DNA of 64,000 nucleotides from NCBI GenBank assembly GCA_021779935.1, contig JAJXZT010000016.1:186001-250000 (forward strand). Reading direction: 5' to 3'. The stretch comes from Acidobacteriota bacterium (GTDB lineage: Bacteria; Acidobacteriota; Terriglobia; Terriglobales; Acidobacteriaceae). A model generated the notes under the pieces. The model was given only the letters and a program-made list of their open reading frames with translations, did no database searches and was not told the DNA's origin. The position numbers and the translations under genes are program-made. Of this stretch, positions 5,888-13,177 are shown piece by piece. Numbering within the stretch: the first letter of the stretch is position 1; each line of letters begins with the position of its first letter.

Positions 5888-7093
5888 ATGTTCGGAATTC
5901 CCATAGACACGATTGACTACTCTGCCGTCGTCCGTTTCTTGGCAACGGGAGTTCGAGAAGGATTCGCTTTGGAGTTTAAGAGCGAGTTTCCTCCACGCTT
6001 CGAAAAGTTCCTGGCTGCATTTGCGAACACATACGGCGGCATCATTTTGATTGGTGTCAATGAGACATCGACAGGTGCTGCTCAGGTCCCTCTGAAAGGC
6101 ATAGAGTTGCGGCCCGGCCTGCGAGAGAGAGTGTTGCAAATAGGGCTCGATTCAGTTTATCCGCCAATTCTGCCCGAAGTTCGTGTAGTGGAATTCAAAA
6201 GTACGGCTGAGCTCGCCGAACCAGACAGAGCTGTAGTTGTGATCAGGGTGATTGAAAGTGATGTCGCTCCACACGCAGTGGATCAGCGCACGACGGTATA
6301 CTTGCGGGCCGACAATACTTCCAAAGGAATGGAACGGAAAGCGACTTTGGAAGAGTTGGAATGGTTCTTGAACAAGCGGCAACGTTCCAGAGAGGAAAAG
6401 TCAAGATTGATTCATGCGGCGACGGAGCGAGCAAAGGAACTTCGTCCACGGCGCCGGAGCCGCAAACAAACCGAACAATATCGAGACGAAGGCAGTATGA
6501 TGTCGCTGACTGTTCCAACATTTCCGCGCGGCCCGCTTCTCGATGCGAAAAAAATGGTTTGCGTGGTCCAGAACTCCAAACTAGATATTCCCACCACTCC
6601 CAATACTTTGCCTGTCGGCCGCTTGCAGCGGGTTGCCGGTGGCGTTGTTTTTGATGGGGACTACGGCTCGTCGGAATTTCAGAGTCAAGGCCTATTTCTG
6701 CACGAGTTTGATTACTGGTGGGACTACTACGGTCGTGCTGTCCAACCTGGTGGAAGGGTGGTCTATCCAAGCTTTACCGCAAGTGCGATTTTTGGAACTC
6801 TTGAACTCAGCAGACGGATTTACAGAGAGATGGGCTACGCGGGGGTGTTAGATTTTCGTTTTCAAGCTGATGGCCTGAAAAATGCGGCATTTGCAGAGCC
6901 GGGGCGCAAGTACACAGGTGAAGTACCCAGACTCCTCGAACCAGAGGTCGTCGTGCAGCGTCGGTTTTCTGTGGGGGAGCTCGAAGAAAATCTTCTCAAC
7001 ATTGCAAGGGACTGTCAGAGCGAATTGTATTGGGCATTTGGGATGGACGCGCCGGACCAATGGCTCGATCTCGATTTTCCGAACCTCCAATGA
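5888..7093 (+). CDS. Schlafen/AlbA_2-domain protein
   Basis: Residues about 8-110 of this 401-residue protein look like the AlbA_2 (Schlafen) module: FALEFKSEFPPRFEKFLAAF, then ANTYGGIILIGVNE, the E-x-K-x-E plus GG-x-hhhGV signature of the fold. It lacks the C-terminal helix-turn-helix and ATP-dependent helicase domains of longer homologues. The segment after about 140 is basic (RPRRRSRKQTEQ), followed by a roughly 230-residue C-terminal domain I do not recognise. Schlafen-type domains bind nucleic acid, some cleave RNA, and in bacteria they often sit in defence or regulatory genes; none of that is shown here. No Shine-Dalgarno is visible. The gene is isolated, with lower GC than its neighbours, which fits an accessory gene. 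Confidence 0.72.
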   Translation: MFGIPIDTIDYSAVVRFLATGVREGFALEFKSEFPPRFEKFLAAFANTYGGIILIGVNETSTGAAQVPLKGIELRPGLRERVLQIGLDSVYPPILPEVRVVEFKSTAELAEPDRAVVVIRVIESDVAPHAVDQRTTVYLRADNTSKGMERKATLEELEWFLNKRQRSREEKSRLIHAATERAKELRPRRRSRKQTEQYRDEGSMMSLTVPTFPRGPLLDAKKMVCVVQNSKLDIPTTPNTLPVGRLQRVAGGVVFDGDYGSSEFQSQGLFLHEFDYWWDYYGRAVQPGGRVVYPSFTASAIFGTLELSRRIYREMGYAGVLDFRFQADGLKNAAFAEPGRKYTGEVPRLLEPEVVVQRRFSVGELEENLLNIARDCQSELYWAFGMDAPDQWLDLDFPNLQ

Positions 7094-7109
7094 GCTGGTA
7101 GGTGTTGGG

Positions 7110-7211
7110 ATGCTTCGTCGCTGCGTGACGAAGCATGACATCCGAAGAAAGCTACTGAGCTACTGAGTAAAGGCAAATGCATAGATCCTGAGCCCAAAAG
7201 CGGCTCAGGAT
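7110..7211. repeat. Two-hairpin intergenic repeat, copy 1
   Basis: A perfect 10-bp inverted repeat (ATGCTTCGTC / GACGAAGCAT, 7-base loop, 7110-7136) is followed by TGACATCCGAAGAAAGCTAC, CTGAG repeats and a second perfect 10-bp hairpin (ATCCTGAGCC / GGCTCAGGAT, 7185-7211). The same order of blocks recurs in weaker form near 12.67 and 14.51 kb. There is no coding potential. It behaves like a non-autonomous REP- or MITE-like element. Confidence 0.6.
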
Positions 7212-7256
7212 GACGGCGTCAAAAATAACAGCAACGGCAACAACCAAAACGAACTA

Positions 7257-7455
7257 CCCCGCCCTAGCGGAGCTAGGACGGGGCACCCGCGTGGTCTCCG
7301 TCTGTATCGAATCCCACCCTTCGCGTTGCTCAGGATGGGGCACCCGCGTTCCATCAGCTTCCATCCAAAAACAAAATCGGCAAAGACAAAAGCGAATAAC
7401 CGCGGGCGAGGGCGATCCCACGTTATCGGCCAAAAGAGGGCCGCGAACGTGGGGC
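7257..7455. repeat. Cluster of GGGGCACCC-tailed hairpins
   Basis: Three units end in GGGGCACCCG: one at about 7257-7292 with an 11/12 stem (CCCCGCCCTAGC / GCTAGGACGGGG), one at about 7316-7345 with little stem left, and one at about 7418-7455 with a 13/15 stem (CCCACGTTATCGGCC / GGCCGCGAACGTGGG). Related degenerate units lie near 9180 and 11530. Together with the two-hairpin repeat these fill the 7094-7476 gap; no gene is visible there. Confidence 0.5.
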
Positions 7456-7476
7456 ACCCGAAGGTCATCGTTTGCG

Positions 7477-7785
7477 TTACTTCTTCTCCACTTTATTGAA
7501 GATTGCGGTCACTTCCGTAGCCCCCTGGTCGTAAAGCTTCATCTCTTCTGGGGCAAGGTAGTGCAGGAGCTTCAAAAACTCTCCCGCATGGATGCGCTCT
7601 TCGTCGGCAATATCCTTCAGCACTGCCATGGCTAACTTGTTGTCAGTGGATTCGGCAAGCTGCACGTACAGCTGCACAGCCTCGAACTCCGCGGCGACCA
7701 TGAAACGAATGGCACGCACCAATTCTTCATCAGTCAGTTTGCGATCATTGGCGAGACCGGAAAACGGTGCTCCAAAGCTTGGCAT
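7477..7785 (-). CDS. Short ferritin-like (rubrerythrin/encapsulated-ferritin type) protein
   Basis: This 102-residue protein is mostly two long helices with an iron-site pattern. Helix 1 has Glu33 in MVAAEFEAVQLYVQL, and helix 2 has E-x-x-H in DIADEERIHAGEFLKLL (Glu63, His66). Full ferritins have four helices and about 160 residues; half-size forms of this kind dimerise to build one di-iron site, as in encapsulin cargo ferritins and archaeal short rubrerythrin-like proteins. It probably oxidises or stores iron or scavenges peroxide in the cytoplasm. A strong GGAGGATT lies 8 bases before the ATG. It is the last gene of the minus-strand group at 7.4-9.9 kb. No encapsulin shell gene is present in the window, so encapsulation is only a possibility. 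Confidence 0.8.
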   Translation of the reverse strand: MPSFGAPFSGLANDRKLTDEELVRAIRFMVAAEFEAVQLYVQLAESTDNKLAMAVLKDIADEERIHAGEFLKLLHYLAPEEMKLYDQGATEVTAIFNKVEKK

Positions 7786-7824
7786 GACAGGAATCCTCCA
7801 TGAAAAAGTATTAGGGAAGAATGC

Positions 7825-8691
7825 TCATCCCTCTTTTGCAAAGGCCATCAGTTCGTGGTTGAACTTTTCTTTTTCCTCCAGGAACAGACCGTGCCCACTC
7901 TTTTCGAAGCGAATGATCTTTGAGTTCTTAATGCCGCGAGCCATTTCCTGGGCAAAAACAAACGGGCAGATTCTGTCACCGGCGGAGTGAAAAATCGCGG
8001 TGGGAACAGCAATCATTGCCAGTTCAGAGCGCAGATCGGTATCACGCAGAGCGGCGACACTCTCCGCGATGGCGTATGGCGACGCCTGCATTCCCATGGC
8101 GTGAAACCAGGCGGCAAGGCCGGGGTTGATAGACGTTTCCGTGAGGCCGAAGAGTTTGCCAAAATCGGCAAGCAACTTAGGCCGGTCAATATCGACGGCT
8201 TCCATGAGCGCGTCTGCCTCCGACTTCGGCAGGCCGTAGGGGTAATCGTCCCGCTTTGTCCAGATCGGCGCCGCAGCACCAAAGAGAGCAAGCCTGGAAA
8301 CGCGGCTTCCCTTGTGACGGGCCATGTAGTGGATGACGATTGCGCCGCCCATCGAGTGGCCGCCCAGGGTCACGCCGTTCACATCGAGACGATCCAGAAC
8401 AGCCTTCAGGTCGTCGGCATAGACGTCGTAGTTATATGGCCCCCAAGGCTTACTAGATTTACCGAAACCCCGCATGGAAATGCTGATGACCCGAAAACCT
8501 TTCCGGGCCAACTCCGTCATCTGGTAGTCATACATATCGTTCGAGAGGGGCCATCCGGGAATGAGAACGATGGGCCGGCCCTTTCCCCAATCGCGGATAT
8601 GCAGACGGACGCCTGGAGCCACTTCAACGTACTCAAGACAAGCTGGTTCCACTGCGTTGTCGCGATCGGACCCATGCCGTGTGACAGTCAT
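7825..8691 (-). CDS. Alpha/beta hydrolase (non-haem chloroperoxidase/perhydrolase-like)
   Basis: The 288-residue product has the alpha/beta-hydrolase marks: an oxyanion-side HG-like motif (VLIPGWPLSNDMYDYQ), the nucleophile elbow GGHSMGGA with a Ser nucleophile, an acid residue in FHSAGDRICPF, and the catalytic His in EKSGHGLFLEE. The GWP...SMRGFGKSSKPW pattern is typical of cofactor-free haloperoxidases/perhydrolases and related esterases; the substrate is unknown. The ATG at 8689-8691 is preceded by AAAGGTGG at good distance, so I prefer it to the GTG three codons upstream. It starts 25 bases after the decayed Met-rich gene and is followed by the ferritin-like gene, suggesting one transcript linked to oxidative or metal stress. 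Confidence 0.85.
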   Translation of the reverse strand: MTVTRHGSDRDNAVEPACLEYVEVAPGVRLHIRDWGKGRPIVLIPGWPLSNDMYDYQMTELARKGFRVISISMRGFGKSSKPWGPYNYDVYADDLKAVLDRLDVNGVTLGGHSMGGAIVIHYMARHKGSRVSRLALFGAAAPIWTKRDDYPYGLPKSEADALMEAVDIDRPKLLADFGKLFGLTETSINPGLAAWFHAMGMQASPYAIAESVAALRDTDLRSELAMIAVPTAIFHSAGDRICPFVFAQEMARGIKNSKIIRFEKSGHGLFLEEKEKFNHELMAFAKEG

Positions 8692-8716
8692 GGTTTCCAC
8701 CTTTCTTAATACGAAA

Positions 8717-8956
8717 CTATTTTTCGACGCAGCCGGCCATCTTCTGCATGCGATCCGTCATGATTTGTAAGTGGGCGAGCACCGCCGGCGGCAGTTCCAT
8801 CGGACGGTTCAGGCTGGCTTGTCGCGTTGTCATGGCGTTCTTCATGGCGGCATCAGCGGCAGCCATTTTTGCCATGATGTGATTGATCATGGTTTGTATA
8901 CGTTCCATCTGCGCACGCCTCTGCTCGATTTGGGATTTCATATTCCTCGTGTCCAT
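8717..8956 (-). pseudogene. Decayed duplicate of the Met-rich coiled-coil gene, signal peptide lost
   Basis: The 79-codon frame (MDTRNMKSQIEQRRAQMERI at its start) aligns to the C-terminal two thirds of the exported Met-rich protein at 9437-9895: SSGMDTRNMKSQIE matches SSGMEAKGMNSQME, and KMAAADAAMKNAM matches TMATADAAMKNHM. Upstream codons S-S-G are still present, but a TAG stops the frame five codons before this ATG and the signal-peptide region is missing. The DNA further upstream (to about 9058) again matches the parent's upstream region, so about 120 bases were lost from the middle of the copy. The remaining frame has fewer heptads and a shortened tail. It could still be expressed as a cytoplasmic peptide using a GGAG at 8 bases, but decay is the simpler reading. 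Confidence 0.65.
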
Positions 8957-9033
8957 GCCAGAACTCCGCTACAACGGCCACATCTGGTTCCAAATCCGCC
9001 GGAGCGAAGCCAAGTTACCAAGCGGATTAGTGG

Positions 9034-9058
9034 CTGATCTGTTCACAATTGCTCATAT
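9034..9058. promoter_or_regulatory. Conserved palindrome-like element upstream of the decayed Met-rich copy
   Basis: The 17-mer CTGTTCACAATTGCTCA is shared with the region upstream of the intact gene (about 9995-10018), both preceded by CTGAT. It is an imperfect dyad around CAATTG with TGT/ACA outer arms. Conservation beyond the coding region points to an operator or promoter element copied along with the gene. Confidence 0.45.
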
Positions 9059-9263
9059 CCCCACTGGCGAATAGGAAAAAAGGGGAGCGGATGGAAGCGG
9101 AGAATTGATTGGCGGTTGCGATGGGAGAAGCGGCCAGGGCGCGGGATTAGGTCGATCAGCCGACGCCGGAAAACCCCATATCTGCTGACTGCGGCAGACG
9201 TGGAGCACCCTCAGCAAATTAAATCCGGCGAGATGCCGAGCGTCAGGCCTGAGCGCGCAGGTG

Positions 9264-9383
9264 TCACCCGCGTCCGCGCCGCCGGAATATCAGAGCGAGC
9301 GCGATGATCACGACTGCCGTCAGCACCCACATCCAAACCATGTTCGAACCCATGTTCCAACCGCCCATACCATATCCGTTCAT
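9264..9383 (-). CDS. One-helix small membrane peptide (39 residues)
   Basis: The frame encodes a 39-residue peptide that starts MNGYGMGGWNMGSNMVWMWV, continues with the hydrophobic helix LTAVVIIALALIF and ends with RRRGRG, the positive-inside signature of a cytoplasmic C-terminus. The N-terminus is rich in Gly, Asn, Met and Trp. An AGGGGAG ribosome binding site lies 6 bases before the ATG. Similar short peptides with a hydrophobic helix and basic tail occur widely in acidobacteria and proteobacteria without known function. It lies between the Met-rich gene and its decayed copy on the same strand and is probably co-transcribed with the former. Confidence 0.7.
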   Translation of the reverse strand: MNGYGMGGWNMGSNMVWMWVLTAVVIIALALIFRRRGRG

Positions 9384-9436
9384 AAAAGCTCCCCTGGAAT
9401 TATCGGATGGAGACACGGACACTATCAGAATCAGAC

Positions 9437-9895
9437 TTATTTCTTCTGATCGTCCGGCATCCCGTTATTCTTTTGCATCATGGCGCCGCTTTTCTTTCGC
9501 ATGTTCATTGCGTTCGGCATCATGGCCATGTGTCCGGCCATGGCCTGCATGTGATCGGTCATGGATTGCAAGAGACTGATGATCGACTGCTGCAATTCCA
9601 TCTGGCTTTTCATGCTGGCCTTCGCCGTTTCCATGTGATTCTTCATGGCAGCATCGGCGGTGGCCATTGTGGCCATGGTGTCCTTCATCTGGGTCTGTAT
9701 CTGTTCCATCTGTGTGCGCATCTGCTCCATCTGCGCACGCATCTGTTCGCGCTGGGCTCGCATCTGCTCCATCTGCGAGTTCATGCCCTTGGCTTCCATG
9801 CCGGAACTTTGCGTGGCGTTCTGGGCATGGAGTGGAGCCATTAGCAAGAATCCAAGGATCGATACGAACAACAGTTTTGGCGTCGTCATTTTCAT
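9437..9895 (-). CDS. Exported methionine-rich heptad-repeat protein
   Basis: The product is 152 residues when read from the ATG at 9893-9895, which has GGGAG 8 bases upstream; an in-frame start at 9919 would include that ribosome binding site in the coding region. A signal peptide (MTTPKLLFVSILGFLLMAPLHAQ) is followed by about five 7-residue units of the type MEQMRAQ, REQMRAQ, MEQMRTQ, MEQIQTQ, encoded by 21-base DNA repeats at roughly 9690-9785. A second helical part is also Met-rich (HMQAMAGHMAMMPNAMNM). The periodic Met/Gln pattern predicts a coiled coil in the periplasm. Dense methionine could bind copper(I) or silver(I), or act as a sacrificial oxidant sink; both are inferences. No named family is recognised. 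A decayed copy lies downstream at 8717-8956. Confidence 0.8.
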   Translation of the reverse strand: MKMTTPKLLFVSILGFLLMAPLHAQNATQSSGMEAKGMNSQMEQMRAQREQMRAQMEQMRTQMEQIQTQMKDTMATMATADAAMKNHMETAKASMKSQMELQQSIISLLQSMTDHMQAMAGHMAMMPNAMNMRKKSGAMMQKNNGMPDDQKK

Positions 9896-9994
9896 TGCTG
9901 TATCTCCCATGTGTTCCAAAGTCGATTGCTGATAGAAACTGGATTGGCACTACTCCTGCAATACGCCGAACCAAATTAGCAAGCTGCCGGATGA

Positions 9995-10018
9995 CTGATC
10001 TGTTCACAATTGCTCACA
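9995..10018. promoter_or_regulatory. Conserved palindrome-like element upstream of the Met-rich gene
   Basis: CTGTTCACAATTGCTCA with a preceding CTGAT is nearly identical to the element at 9034-9058 and lies about 100 bases upstream of the Met-rich gene's start. A related but perfect palindrome occurs at 12613-12628 upstream of the other small genes. A shared regulator is inferred, not shown. The remaining bases between 10019 and 10149 show no gene. Confidence 0.45.
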
Positions 10019-10149
10019 TCGCGATTTGCGAATACAAACAGCGAGGGAAGATGTTCGAAGTGGAATGACGAAGGGCTGGATGGGGGCAGCAGTTGGGGCC
10101 GAACCGGCTTACATCGGCAAACCGCGTTAGCTGTTGAGCACCAGGCAAT

Positions 10150-11415
10150 CTACACCACGAACATGGCTACTCCGGCGGCGAACATTGCCAGGGTGGTGAT
10201 CACCACGACGGACAATCCCAAGCGTGAACTTGGTTGGCCCTGCATGAGTTTCCTGTCCGAGGCGATGACGAGAATTGCGACGAGAAGGAAGGGAGCCAGC
10301 AATCCGTTGATGATGGCTGTCCAATAGAGTGCCTTCACTGGGTTGATGCCGACGAAGTCGAGTCCGACGGCTACGGCGGTTGAAAGCAGAATGAGCGCAT
10401 AAAACGCGCGTGCCTGTTTCAATTTCTTGTCCAGTCCCTGGCGCCAGCCCAGCGTTTCCGCGAATGCGTATGCCGCCGATCCGGCGAGGGTCGGAATGGC
10501 AAGAAATCCGACACCGACAATGCCGGCGGTAAAGAGGGCCGTGGCAAACCTGCCCGCGAGTGGCCGCAGGGCTTCGGCGGCCTGGCGAGTAGTTTCGATG
10601 TGCGTGATGCCGTGGCTGTTGAGGGTAATGGCGGTAGTCAGGATGATAAAGAACATGACCATATTCGAGAAAAACGTGCCGACGCCGACATCCATACGCC
10701 TCATCTGAAGTTCCTTGTCGGTTGCTCCTCGCCGTTGCGCGAGCGTAGTGAGACCGGCCTCCTTATTCTCTTCAACCTCTTCACTCGCCTGCCAAAAGAA
10801 CAAATACGGACTGATCGTGGTGCCGAAAATTGCGACGAGCATCGACCATTCATCCCTGGAATGCGGAATCGACGGCAAGAGGGTGTCGCGCAGGACCCGG
10901 CCCCAGGGAGCGCCCACGACAAACGCGGTGATGGGGTATGCGAAAAGGACGAGAACCAGCCATTTGAGCACGTTCGCTATCTGGTGATAACGGAGACGAA
11001 CCGTTGCCCACGAAATCACAAGTGCGAACGCCGCTACCAACAGGCGCGAATTGATCCCGGACAGCATTTCAGCCGCATCAGCCATGCCGGCAAGATCTGC
11101 CGCGATGTTAATGGTGTTTACCACGAGAAGGGCCAAGACGAAGCCGCGCAACAGCCAAGCTGGAAATCGCCGCTTGAAATTTCCGGCCAAGCCCTGCCCT
11201 GTCACCATTCCGATGCGGGCACACATGACTTGAACGGCGGCCATCAGCGGCCACGTCAGAAGTGCAGTCCAGAGAAGCTTGGTTCCAAGCTGTGCGCCGA
11301 CAACGGAATATGTGGCAATGCCAGATGGGTCATCGTCGGCAGCGCCGGTGATAACGCCGGGACCAAGCGACTTCAACAGCGATCGCGTCCATCGAATTGG
11401 GTTGGATGTGGGCAC
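10150..11415 (-). CDS. Nramp-superfamily transporter with non-canonical metal-site residues
   Basis: The 421-residue protein has about 11 hydrophobic segments and clear Nramp homology (SLGPGVITGAADDDPSG at the start of helix 1; the TM6 region near 195-215). Canonical Mn/Fe transporters carry DPGN in TM1 and MPH in TM6. Here TM1 has DPSG (29-32) and the TM6 position reads TTISPYLFFW, so the metal-coordinating Met is Ser202 and the His is Tyr204. Nramp relatives lacking that Met are known to move other ions such as Mg2+, so calling this MntH would be unsafe. The start is GTG at 11413-11415 without an evident ribosome binding site. It lies on the same strand as the stress-type genes downstream but 254 bases from them. 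Confidence 0.88.
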   Translation of the reverse strand: MPTSNPIRWTRSLLKSLGPGVITGAADDDPSGIATYSVVGAQLGTKLLWTALLTWPLMAAVQVMCARIGMVTGQGLAGNFKRRFPAWLLRGFVLALLVVNTINIAADLAGMADAAEMLSGINSRLLVAAFALVISWATVRLRYHQIANVLKWLVLVLFAYPITAFVVGAPWGRVLRDTLLPSIPHSRDEWSMLVAIFGTTISPYLFFWQASEEVEENKEAGLTTLAQRRGATDKELQMRRMDVGVGTFFSNMVMFFIILTTAITLNSHGITHIETTRQAAEALRPLAGRFATALFTAGIVGVGFLAIPTLAGSAAYAFAETLGWRQGLDKKLKQARAFYALILLSTAVAVGLDFVGINPVKALYWTAIINGLLAPFLLVAILVIASDRKLMQGQPSSRLGLSVVVITTLAMFAAGVAMFVV

Positions 11416-11527
11416 GAAAAGCCGGAGCGGAAACTCAGTACCAGTTTTGTCGCGGGTTTCGCATGCATCCCTGAGTTTTGCCTGCGCAGGACGCCCGGCC
11501 AGTAGGTCTGGATGTCCAGACGACCAG

Positions 11528-11566
11528 CCTCACATCCGCTGGCTACGGCAGATGTGAGGCACAGTT
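11528..11566. repeat. Degenerate GGCAC-tailed hairpin
   Basis: CCTCACATC and GATGTGAGG form a 9-bp stem around a 14-base loop, followed by CAC, the decayed form of the GGGGCACCC tail seen at 7.26-7.45 kb. It lies in the gap upstream of the Nramp gene; no riboswitch was recognised there. Confidence 0.4.
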
Positions 11567-11647
11567 AGCAAGTTGCATCCAGGGCAGGCCTCTATATCAA
11601 TCGAACAGCCTAAGTCCTGCATTTCACGGTTCTAAGTCCACCGCAAC

Positions 11648-11830
11648 CTAAGCCTGCTTTTTCGTCTCGTGCTCGTGTTTCTGGTGCTCCGGTTGGGGAT
11701 TCTTGGGCTGTCCGATCGGAACCGGCGGTTTCTGCTGCACTGGCTGGTTCGGCTTGTTTTCATGTTTCTGCTCAGAATTGGGCTTCTGCGGATCGCTATG
11801 TTGCGGGTTGTGACTTTCCTGATGTGACAT
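11648..11830 (-). CDS. His/Pro/Gln/Lys-rich low-complexity peptide (60 residues)
   Basis: The start MSHQESHNPQHSDPQKPNSE is preceded by AAGGAGAAG at ideal distance, which rules out the longer frame beginning 16 codons upstream. The peptide contains no hydrophobic segment and is almost all His, Pro, Gln, Lys, Glu and Asn, so it should be disordered and soluble. Eight His residues could bind divalent metal. No family is recognised. It is one of three short genes with strong ribosome binding sites between 11.6 and 12.5 kb on the same strand (with the CsbD-like and the one-helix peptide), suggesting a stress-response set. Confidence 0.7.
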   Translation of the reverse strand: MSHQESHNPQHSDPQKPNSEQKHENKPNQPVQQKPPVPIGQPKNPQPEHQKHEHETKKQA

Positions 11831-12095
11831 TTTACTTCTCCTTTTGCAGATATTTCGGCTGTTGGTAAGTTGCTGCAATCGCGTTAACCGTATTCAGACG
11901 TTTAGCGAAAAAAGCAGCGCGGATTCGTGCAAGAAAAAGTGCCTGGTCCGTGGGCATGACATGCGTGGCCTGCTTCAACACGCAACCACGAGGCCAAACT
12001 GATGTCCGCAGGGCCTGCTTGCAGCACTGAGCAGGTAATAGCAGCACATCAGCTATTCCGAACGCAGAAGAACTTTTGCGACAGAGCCGCCTACA

Positions 12096-12275
12096 TTACT
12101 TTCCGAAAATTTTCTGAACCTGCCCAAGCTTTTTTTCAACTTTGCCGGCGTTGTGTTCGAGTTTGCCTTTGGCGGTCAAAGTAGGATTGTTCGTGATTTG
12201 GCCTGCCTTCTCTTTGACTTTGCCTTTCGCTGCGTGGAAATTGCCCTGCACCTCATGCTTCGTGCTTGGTTTCAT
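12096..12275 (-). CDS. CsbD-like stress protein (59 residues)
   Basis: The 59-residue product has the CsbD pattern: an N-terminal GNFHAAKGKVKEKAGQIT unit and a second AKGKLEHNAGKVEKKLGQV unit, highly charged and free of hydrophobic helices. CsbD-family proteins are small, abundant and induced by general stress (sigmaB in Bacillus, RpoS in enterics; YjbJ in E. coli); their molecular job is unknown. An AAGGAGAG ribosome binding site lies 6 bases before the ATG. It lies between the His/Pro-rich peptide and the one-helix peptide on the same strand. Its presence is the strongest sign that this small-gene cluster is a stress regulon. Confidence 0.85.
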   Translation of the reverse strand: MKPSTKHEVQGNFHAAKGKVKEKAGQITNNPTLTAKGKLEHNAGKVEKKLGQVQKIFGK

Positions 12276-12371
12276 ATGTACTCTCCTTAATCATTGCGTT
12301 GTGTCTGATTCAGGAACGAGACTTCCGTTACCAACCCCGGGACGGCTATTTCCAAACCCGAAGAGACCGCG

Positions 12372-12458
12372 TTAACGGCGTCCGCGTCCCCAGTACCAAC
12401 CGCCTCCACCGAGCAAGAACACGATCAGGAGGATGATCAAAATGGTTTGCAGACTCAT
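12372..12458 (-). CDS. 28-residue one-helix membrane peptide
   Basis: The peptide begins MSLQTILIILLIVFLLGGGG and ends WYWGRGRR: a single transmembrane helix, a Gly hinge and an aromatic/basic tail. The pattern resembles the DUF3309-type peptides found in many soil bacteria. AGGAGAG precedes the ATG. Its GGGGWYWGRGRR tail recalls the RRRGRG end of the peptide at 9264-9383. The perfect palindrome at 12613-12628 lies about 155 bases upstream. Function is unknown; such peptides are often general-stress induced. Confidence 0.72.
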   Translation of the reverse strand: MSLQTILIILLIVFLLGGGGWYWGRGRR

Positions 12459-12612
12459 TGAAGCTCTCCTAAACGCTGACTTATGAACTTGGCGGCAGCC
12501 TGCACGGAACGCCGTGACAAGTTGCCGCCATCCACGCCATTTTATGGAGTGGCACTGGATCTACGTAAATCCACGTCTTGGGAGAGATTGACAGGCCAAG
12601 GTTTGAGCAGTC

Positions 12613-12628
12613 TGTTCAATAGTGAACA
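12613..12628. promoter_or_regulatory. Perfect palindrome TGTTCA-N4-TGAACA
   Basis: TGTTCAATAGTGAACA is a perfect 6+6 inverted repeat with a 4-base spacer, typical of a dimeric regulator site. It lies upstream of the minus-strand small-gene run (start 12458) and shares TGTTCA with the elements at 9034 and 9995. The rest of 12459-13177 holds a degenerate intergenic repeat and no other recognisable gene. Confidence 0.45.
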
Positions 12629-12666
12629 CATCTGGACATAACGGGCGGCTGACGCGGTTCATCGTT

Positions 12667-12842
12667 AGGATGCTTCGTGGCTGCGCGAGTCAGCATGACA
12701 TCCGAAGAAGGCTACTGAGCAAGATAGTCGCGAGACACGAGTCGCGAGTCGCGATTTCGAGCCGCAAGCTACAAGGTGCAAGCAAACCAAAAGCAGAACC
12801 AAAATGCATGGATACTGAGCCAAAAAGCGACTCAGGATGACG
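12667..12842. repeat. Two-hairpin intergenic repeat, copy 2 (degenerate)
   Basis: GATGCTTCGTGGCTGCG followed by GCATGACATCCGAAGAAGGC and CTACTGAG repeats the order of copy 1 (7110). The second hairpin is decayed to ATACTGAGCC ... GACTCAGGAT at about 12812-12838. A 60-base insertion between the halves contains CGAGTCGCGAGTCGCGA short repeats. Confidence 0.5.
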
Positions 12843-13177
12843 ACTTCAAAAACAAAACTCAGAGCAAGAGCACGGGCAACTGCAACGGTACCGCCTTGGC
12901 AGAAATGGCCTGAACGTGGAACACAGGGAGGCTCATTTGCCAGTCAATATCCCATCAAAGTGCTAGTTTTGCCTTCGATTTGAGCCGGAAATGGCGTTCT
13001 CACAAAACGACGTGAGCCAGCGCACGGAATGAAACGGGCGCATACCGCACTCTTCATGACCGTGCTGCTCACTGTTACAGGATGTCTCTGCACACAAGCT
13101 ACATTCCCCAGTCGTTTACCTATTGGTCACGGGCCAGTTTCCACAACAACTATTTTGCGCTTTTCGGAGAAGACTTC

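Follow-up and report, generated by a model that had tools for sequence, protein, structure and literature searches.

An exported methionine-rich helical protein of Acidobacteriota with a mini-protein partner, a candidate periplasmic copper/silver sponge

Described soft-metal binders and the helix protein

In the excerpts of the literature cited here, SilE peptides bind Ag+ through MX2H/HX2M motifs (PMC10080550), SilE turns helical upon Ag+ binding (PMC10080550, PMC5008109), and the His count is ten for both SilE and PcoE (PMC5008109). PcoE has been proposed to be an early copper sponge (PMC7558416), the cores of Csp proteins are lined with Cys (PMC5171941, PMC7558416), and CopM of Synechocystis is a periplasmic, Met-rich protein encoded beside copper efflux genes (PMC4335983). 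In the open PMC literature, SilE alone turned up as a Met-rich periplasmic copper coiled-coil case, and we found nothing there on Met-rich copper-resistance proteins in Acidobacteria.

In the window (the whole 64,000-nt stretch of an Acidobacteriota genome that was analysed), we found a gene for an exported, Met-rich helix protein (P0001) on the minus strand at 9437..9895, defined by its ORF, homologues, alignment, Ka/Ks and AlphaFold2 (AF2) prediction. The ORF runs from an ATG at 9895 to a stop at 9437 and codes for 152 aa, including 29 Met and 19 Gln; the 127 residues after residue 25 hold 26 Met and 3 His. An N-terminal signal peptide, called by eye, is followed by five heptads at residues 38-72 (MNSQMEQ, MRAQREQ, MRAQMEQ, MRTQMEQ and IQTQMKD) and then by a Met/His-bearing stretch. 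Hence, the about five Met/Gln heptads and the signal peptide described in an earlier note on this DNA are both present. The periodicity goes beyond chance: residue i equals residue i+7 at 19 of 29 positions over residues 38-73 (0 of 20,000 shuffles as high), and the 3.5-residue Met period over residues 38-124 was equalled in 0 of 20,000 shuffles. The heptads are coded by 21-base repeats, as had been claimed, in a minus-strand tandem array at 9686-9775 (4.3 copies, 73% matches) whose unit number differs among relatives. The protein also proved to be of no known family, in that no Pfam or NCBIfam model scored above its curated cut-off and the weak hits were to assorted coiled-coil families; NCBIfam matches to HpsJ, SMC and the like were far under cut-off and were rejected. 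An Rfam scan of 7000-13100 gave no hit at gathering score, and promoter and terminator scans gave signals no higher than shuffles.

AF2, run on a single chain with a 16-member alignment, predicted one 92-residue helix (residues 34-125) with block pLDDT of 91-96 for residues 41-110, mean pLDDT of 73 and pTM of 0.31; AF2 is unreliable for disorder in a metal-free state. After the leader, Leu, Ile, Val and Phe together number 6 vs. 26 Met, and the gaps between Met alternate between 3 and 4, so the Met side chains line up as the helix's only hydrophobic stripe and would form an interface, not a free surface. Since the core has hardly any hydrophobic residue other than Met, Met-mediated helix pairing is the natural inference. 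Hence, the regular Met spacing described in the earlier note stands, whereas its 'surface' is doubtful.

The helix protein resembles SilE and PcoE in being small, exported, Met-rich and helical, in having MX2H-type motifs (MxxHM in 16/16 members of its family) and in its genes lying near Cu/Ag exporters. Where those proteins have about ten His, according to the excerpted source, and 10-15 Met, the mature window protein reaches 26 Met but only 3 His (2 to 8 among the 16 members). Furthermore, SilE is disordered without metal and helical with Ag+ or Cu+, whereas the window protein is predicted to be a preformed long heptad helix; the likeness drawn here is one of features, and the helix family, with no Pfam or NCBIfam match above cut-off, has a mini-protein partner of its own. 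Csp1 and Csp3 are also helical with many soft-metal side chains along their helices, but they form a Cys-lined four-helix bundle, whereas the window protein has no Cys (one Cys in 2/16 members) and one predicted helix. CopM, as far as its excerpted description goes, shares the periplasmic location, the Met richness and the copper-gene neighbours, but it has two DUF305 domains and an HH motif, and DUF305 matched 0/16 helix-family members at E 0.001. Without the ten His typical of SilE/PcoE, Csp-like Cys or the CopM domain DUF305, the helix family is not claimed as a member of any of these groups. Spy, CpxP and ZraP are likewise small, exported and all-helical, but the helix family has no LTXXQ-type Pfam match and its phmmer similarity to Spy in the PDB is sub-threshold (E 0.12). 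CusF and SilF handle Cu(I)/Ag(I) through Met/His in the periplasm beside RND pumps; the CusF fold is a beta-barrel, whereas the helix protein is predicted to be all-helical.

Family, upstream element and mini-protein partner

The homologue search proposed in the earlier note gave 18 loci, all from Acidobacteriota, and the helix protein belongs to a sparse, unnamed family of soil Acidobacteriota under purifying selection (Ka/Ks of 0.08-0.35 across 12 pairs, with Ks saturated in the 0.08 pair). Within the window's taxonomic family, 200 genomes were searched; 17 matched, 7 of them strongly (best E <1e-23, own genome included). The other 10 had weak hits (best E 2.3e-5 to 9.6e-4), and G037 gave a second such hit; these were set aside as reflecting coiled-coil similarity. 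In a scan of named genomes, 14 helix-gene loci came up, in records titled Acidobacteria, Acidobacteriia, Acidobacteriaceae, Terriglobia, Granulicella or Candidatus Sulfotelmatobacter. With loci that duplicate other contigs left out (L033, L034, L039 and L042), the set comprises the window, L021-L027, L032, L035-L038, L040, L041, L043, L044 and L045; the helix gene of L027 is truncated and locus L044 is cut by a contig end. Profile searches were positive in 7 of 399 genomes drawn from the class and in 1 of 396 from the phylum (the window's own), and no match was found in plasmids.

Alignment of 16 members revealed that, compared with most relatives, there are two extra Met/Gln heptads in the window protein and one extra each in L040 and L041. 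Hence, heptad number shifts in 21-nt steps. Methionine is invariant (16/16 members) in columns 56, 70, 74, 77, 84, 88, 95 and 99, as are M84-K85-x-H87-M88, D114 and Q117; H115 is present in 15/16 members, M116 and M119 are nearly invariant, and columns 66 and 105 are looser, with Met giving way to Ile, Val or Leu. Mean conservation is 86% over 25 Met columns vs. 73% over the other 88 columns. Each protein carries 1 to 3 MxxHM motifs, and most of the invariant Met/His lie at residues 56-99, downstream of the variable heptad part. Apart from these members, three proteins among the dropped weak hits (L028 8413-8841, L030 8353-8874 and L031 6782-7186) are also exported and rich in Met and His, and each has a GHM/DHM-type stretch; weakly similar to the window protein (~1e-6), they may form a distant cousin family.

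The window also holds a decayed tandem copy of the helix gene on the minus strand (8717..8956), which lacks the signal-peptide part and is 52% identical over residues 49-123; the duplication spans 200 nt of coding DNA (73% identical) and 64 nt upstream (78% identical). By pattern search, a conserved upstream element, TGAGCAATTGTGAACAGA, was found before the helix gene (9999..10016, minus strand) and again before the decayed copy (9038..9055, minus strand), inside the duplicated 64 nt. Copies with one mismatch also precede the module in L021, where the MDPYF gene (described below) comes next, and in L024 and L025. Searching for the 18-nt element as TGAGCANTTNTGAACAGA, with at most one mismatch and two free positions, gave 53 sites in 8 genomes vs. 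2 for the reversed control. We read 30 of these sites (L071-L100), and the clear downstream genes, named by eye, include Crp/Fnr-type regulators, BON-type proteins, an alpha/beta hydrolase and response regulators; the HMBD/YHS ORF pair of the window genome (contigs C23 and C43) has no site. Since the element is common to regulatory and stress-type genes, it speaks against strictly copper-specific control. The element likely marks a wider, uncharacterised regulon, which is possibly one of general stress.

Downstream of the helix gene, we found a conserved mini-protein ORF (9264..9383, minus strand; 39 aa) with a Met/Trp-rich N-terminus and, by eye, one membrane helix. Its relatives are 33-39 aa long with the consensus MHGYGMxGWNMGWMWMLGVVLIIALALIFRxRx, and eight members matched no Pfam or NCBIfam family above cut-off. 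Nine of the 17 loci examined have the mini-ORF 3' of the helix gene (window, L021-L025, L035, L037 and L043), and it is disrupted in L036. Among the 200 family-level genomes, the mini-protein was found (E <1e-13) in exactly the 7 with the helix gene, an overlap with odds of 1 in 2.3e12 assuming independent genomes; eight further hits (E 0.002-0.008) were taken as chance. In G005 the mini-protein gene lies beyond the MDPYF gene. Of 398 class genomes, 5 have the mini-protein and all are helix-gene carriers (7 carry the helix gene). Ten additional carrier genomes divide into 6 with the mini-protein and 4 without; in G205 it adjoins a YHS ORF and an 804-aa YHS/HMBD ORF, away from the helix gene. 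The profile came from ORFs adjacent to helix genes, so it may overlook remote relatives that stand alone.

Copper-handling genes near the helix gene

The helix gene is linked to copper-handling genes. Taking copper P-type ATPase, YHS, HMBD and multicopper oxidase as markers, we found the nearest one within 2.2 kb of the helix gene in 11/18 loci. In addition, unbiased clustering of neighbours within 9 kb ranked two clusters at the top, the helix family and its antisense frame aside: a metal P-type ATPase cluster in 7/18 loci and a YHS-containing cluster in 7/18 (joined via a fused ORF in L026 and counting L025, which has no YHS gene). Copper ATPases score above the TIGR01511 cut-off in L022, L023, L024 and L035; that of L043 is cut by a contig end (361 of 397 bits), that of L027 is split over two ORFs, and that of L021 is a C-terminal fragment near a contig end. 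Standalone YHS proteins occur in L022, L023, L024, L027, L035 and L040, with a frame-disrupted copy in L026, so that the markers of L021, L026 and L027 are fragments or disrupted. An HMBD protein is encoded in L038, L036 has a multicopper oxidase by Pfam (its best NCBIfam hit, of the CopA type, is under its cut-off), and CusA/CzcA-type RND genes lie ~4 kb off in L024 and, as a homologue, in L027. One island type is common to L023, L024 and L027; the arrangements differ in L022, L035, L038, L040 and L043.

Genome-wide searches for HMBD and YHS, with other copper genes assessed by eye and clustering only, gave an HMBD gene within 10 kb in 6/17 genomes vs. 0.13 expected (P 5e-9) and a YHS match near the helix gene in 7/17 vs. 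0.20 expected (P 2.5e-9), genomes being treated as independent; G114 supplies one case of each, and its HMBD lies near its truncated copy. No copper marker was found at 7/18 loci; one flank is under 1.5 kb in L025, L037, L041 and L044, and at least 4.7 kb is available on each side in the window, L032 and L045. No HMBD or YHS match lies on the contig of the window itself; the HMBD/YHS ORF pair of its genome is on C23 and C43. The earlier note had suggested checking for co-occurrence with copper or peroxide genes: the copper part is borne out at 11/18 loci, and no recurrent peroxide or Met-sulfoxide-reductase gene was recognised, by eye and clustering only, in the neighbour clusters.

Other genes were seen near helix genes. 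Those around the window gene (NRAMP, a hydrolase and an EncFtn-like ferritin) were not common to other loci in clustering, and we do not count them as part of the module. The ferritin-like gene (7477-7785, minus strand) is a lone encapsulin-cargo gene of the EncB family (91.3 bits vs. a cut-off of 90), and no encapsulin gene was noticed adjoining it. The MDPYF gene, which adjoins the helix gene in 5/18 loci (L021, L026, L032, L037 and L044), encodes a conserved, exported protein of ~300 aa (AQMDPYF...HPVPQDT; 78-88% identical), whose L021 copy has no Pfam match and an AF2 mean pLDDT of 28. DUF302-type proteins are near the helix gene in four loci (L021, L022, L025 and L037; Pfam-confirmed in L025), and ABC1-type kinases adjoin it in two (L023 2804-4468 and L040 10726-12354).

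Alternative roles and the sponge reading

There is a modest chance that the helix protein is instead a general envelope-stress protein, a Spy/CpxP-like holdase or a spacer in the periplasm that moves with metal islands and uses Met, as a flexible hydrophobic residue, to clamp unfolded proteins. The upstream element shared with regulators, BON-type proteins and a hydrolase would fit such a role, as would the all-helical prediction and the weak phmmer similarity to Spy; however, members have no LTXXQ-type or other recurring Pfam match at E <=0.001, Spy was absent from the hits of a PDB profile search, and the helix gene is linked to copper genes. Moreover, eight columns are strictly Met where Leu or Ile would do for hydrophobic clamping. 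The copper linkage, together with the conserved partner ORF, the purifying selection and the invariant columns outside the expanding heptads, makes it improbable that the protein is a low-complexity coiled coil without a metal role that grows by 21-nt slippage and hitchhikes, even though heptad number varies in 7-residue steps, the window contains a decayed tandem copy and the L027 gene is truncated.

A sacrificial Met sink for periplasmic oxidants (HOCl, peroxide), recycled by Met-sulfoxide reductase, would agree with the high Met content, and the NRAMP and EncFtn-like neighbours in the window fit metal or oxidative stress. In L043 the helix gene adjoins a molybdopterin oxidoreductase with a Mo-co dimerisation domain, presumably of the sulfite-oxidase type, which would also suit a sink. 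For E. coli, the excerpted source (PMC9302797) connects Met repair with copper stress, in keeping with the same idea. However, a sink needs neither position-specific Met nor the invariance seen at H87 and H115, and with no recurrent peroxide or Msr gene recognised by eye in the neighbour clusters we regard this role as very improbable. Hence, for the Cu(I)/Ag(I)-or-oxidant idea of the earlier note, the metal half gains support from the copper genes at 11/18 loci, the HMBD/YHS enrichment and the invariant Met/His with MxxHM motifs, and the oxidant half does not.

By analogy, we consider it fairly probable that the helix protein is a periplasmic Met/His sponge that buffers Cu(I)/Ag(I) and works like SilE and PcoE; the copper genes nearby and the invariant Met/His with MxxHM motifs support this metal reading. 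Against it count the window contig with no HMBD or YHS match, the seven loci without a marker, the few His and the stress-shared upstream element. From sequence, the helix proteins are most likely a new family that, with its mini-protein partner, acts as a periplasmic soft-metal sponge. In this sponge, the signal peptide would export the mature chain of ~127 residues to the periplasm, where it would form the predicted long helix and pair as a coiled coil via its Met stripe. Cu(I) or Ag(I) would then bind to the stripe's thioethers and to the MxxHM sites, and would stay there until exporters or oxidases handle it. The Met/Trp-rich mini-protein, with its single predicted span, probably tethers the sponge to the inner membrane or hands the metal on. 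More tentatively, the pair may be an undescribed two-protein module for Cu(I)/Ag(I) storage, with a coiled coil cored by Met thioethers, a capacity tuned in 21-nt units and docking to copper exporters by the mini-protein.

If true, the sponge reading would place a helical architecture without Cys and with a Met core among the known periplasmic copper/silver buffers, here in Acidobacteriota, and would give a testable role to two genes without a family model, one of which has only ~40 codons. The natural series of heptad numbers would then allow a direct test of how thioether sites relate to metal capacity on a coiled coil.
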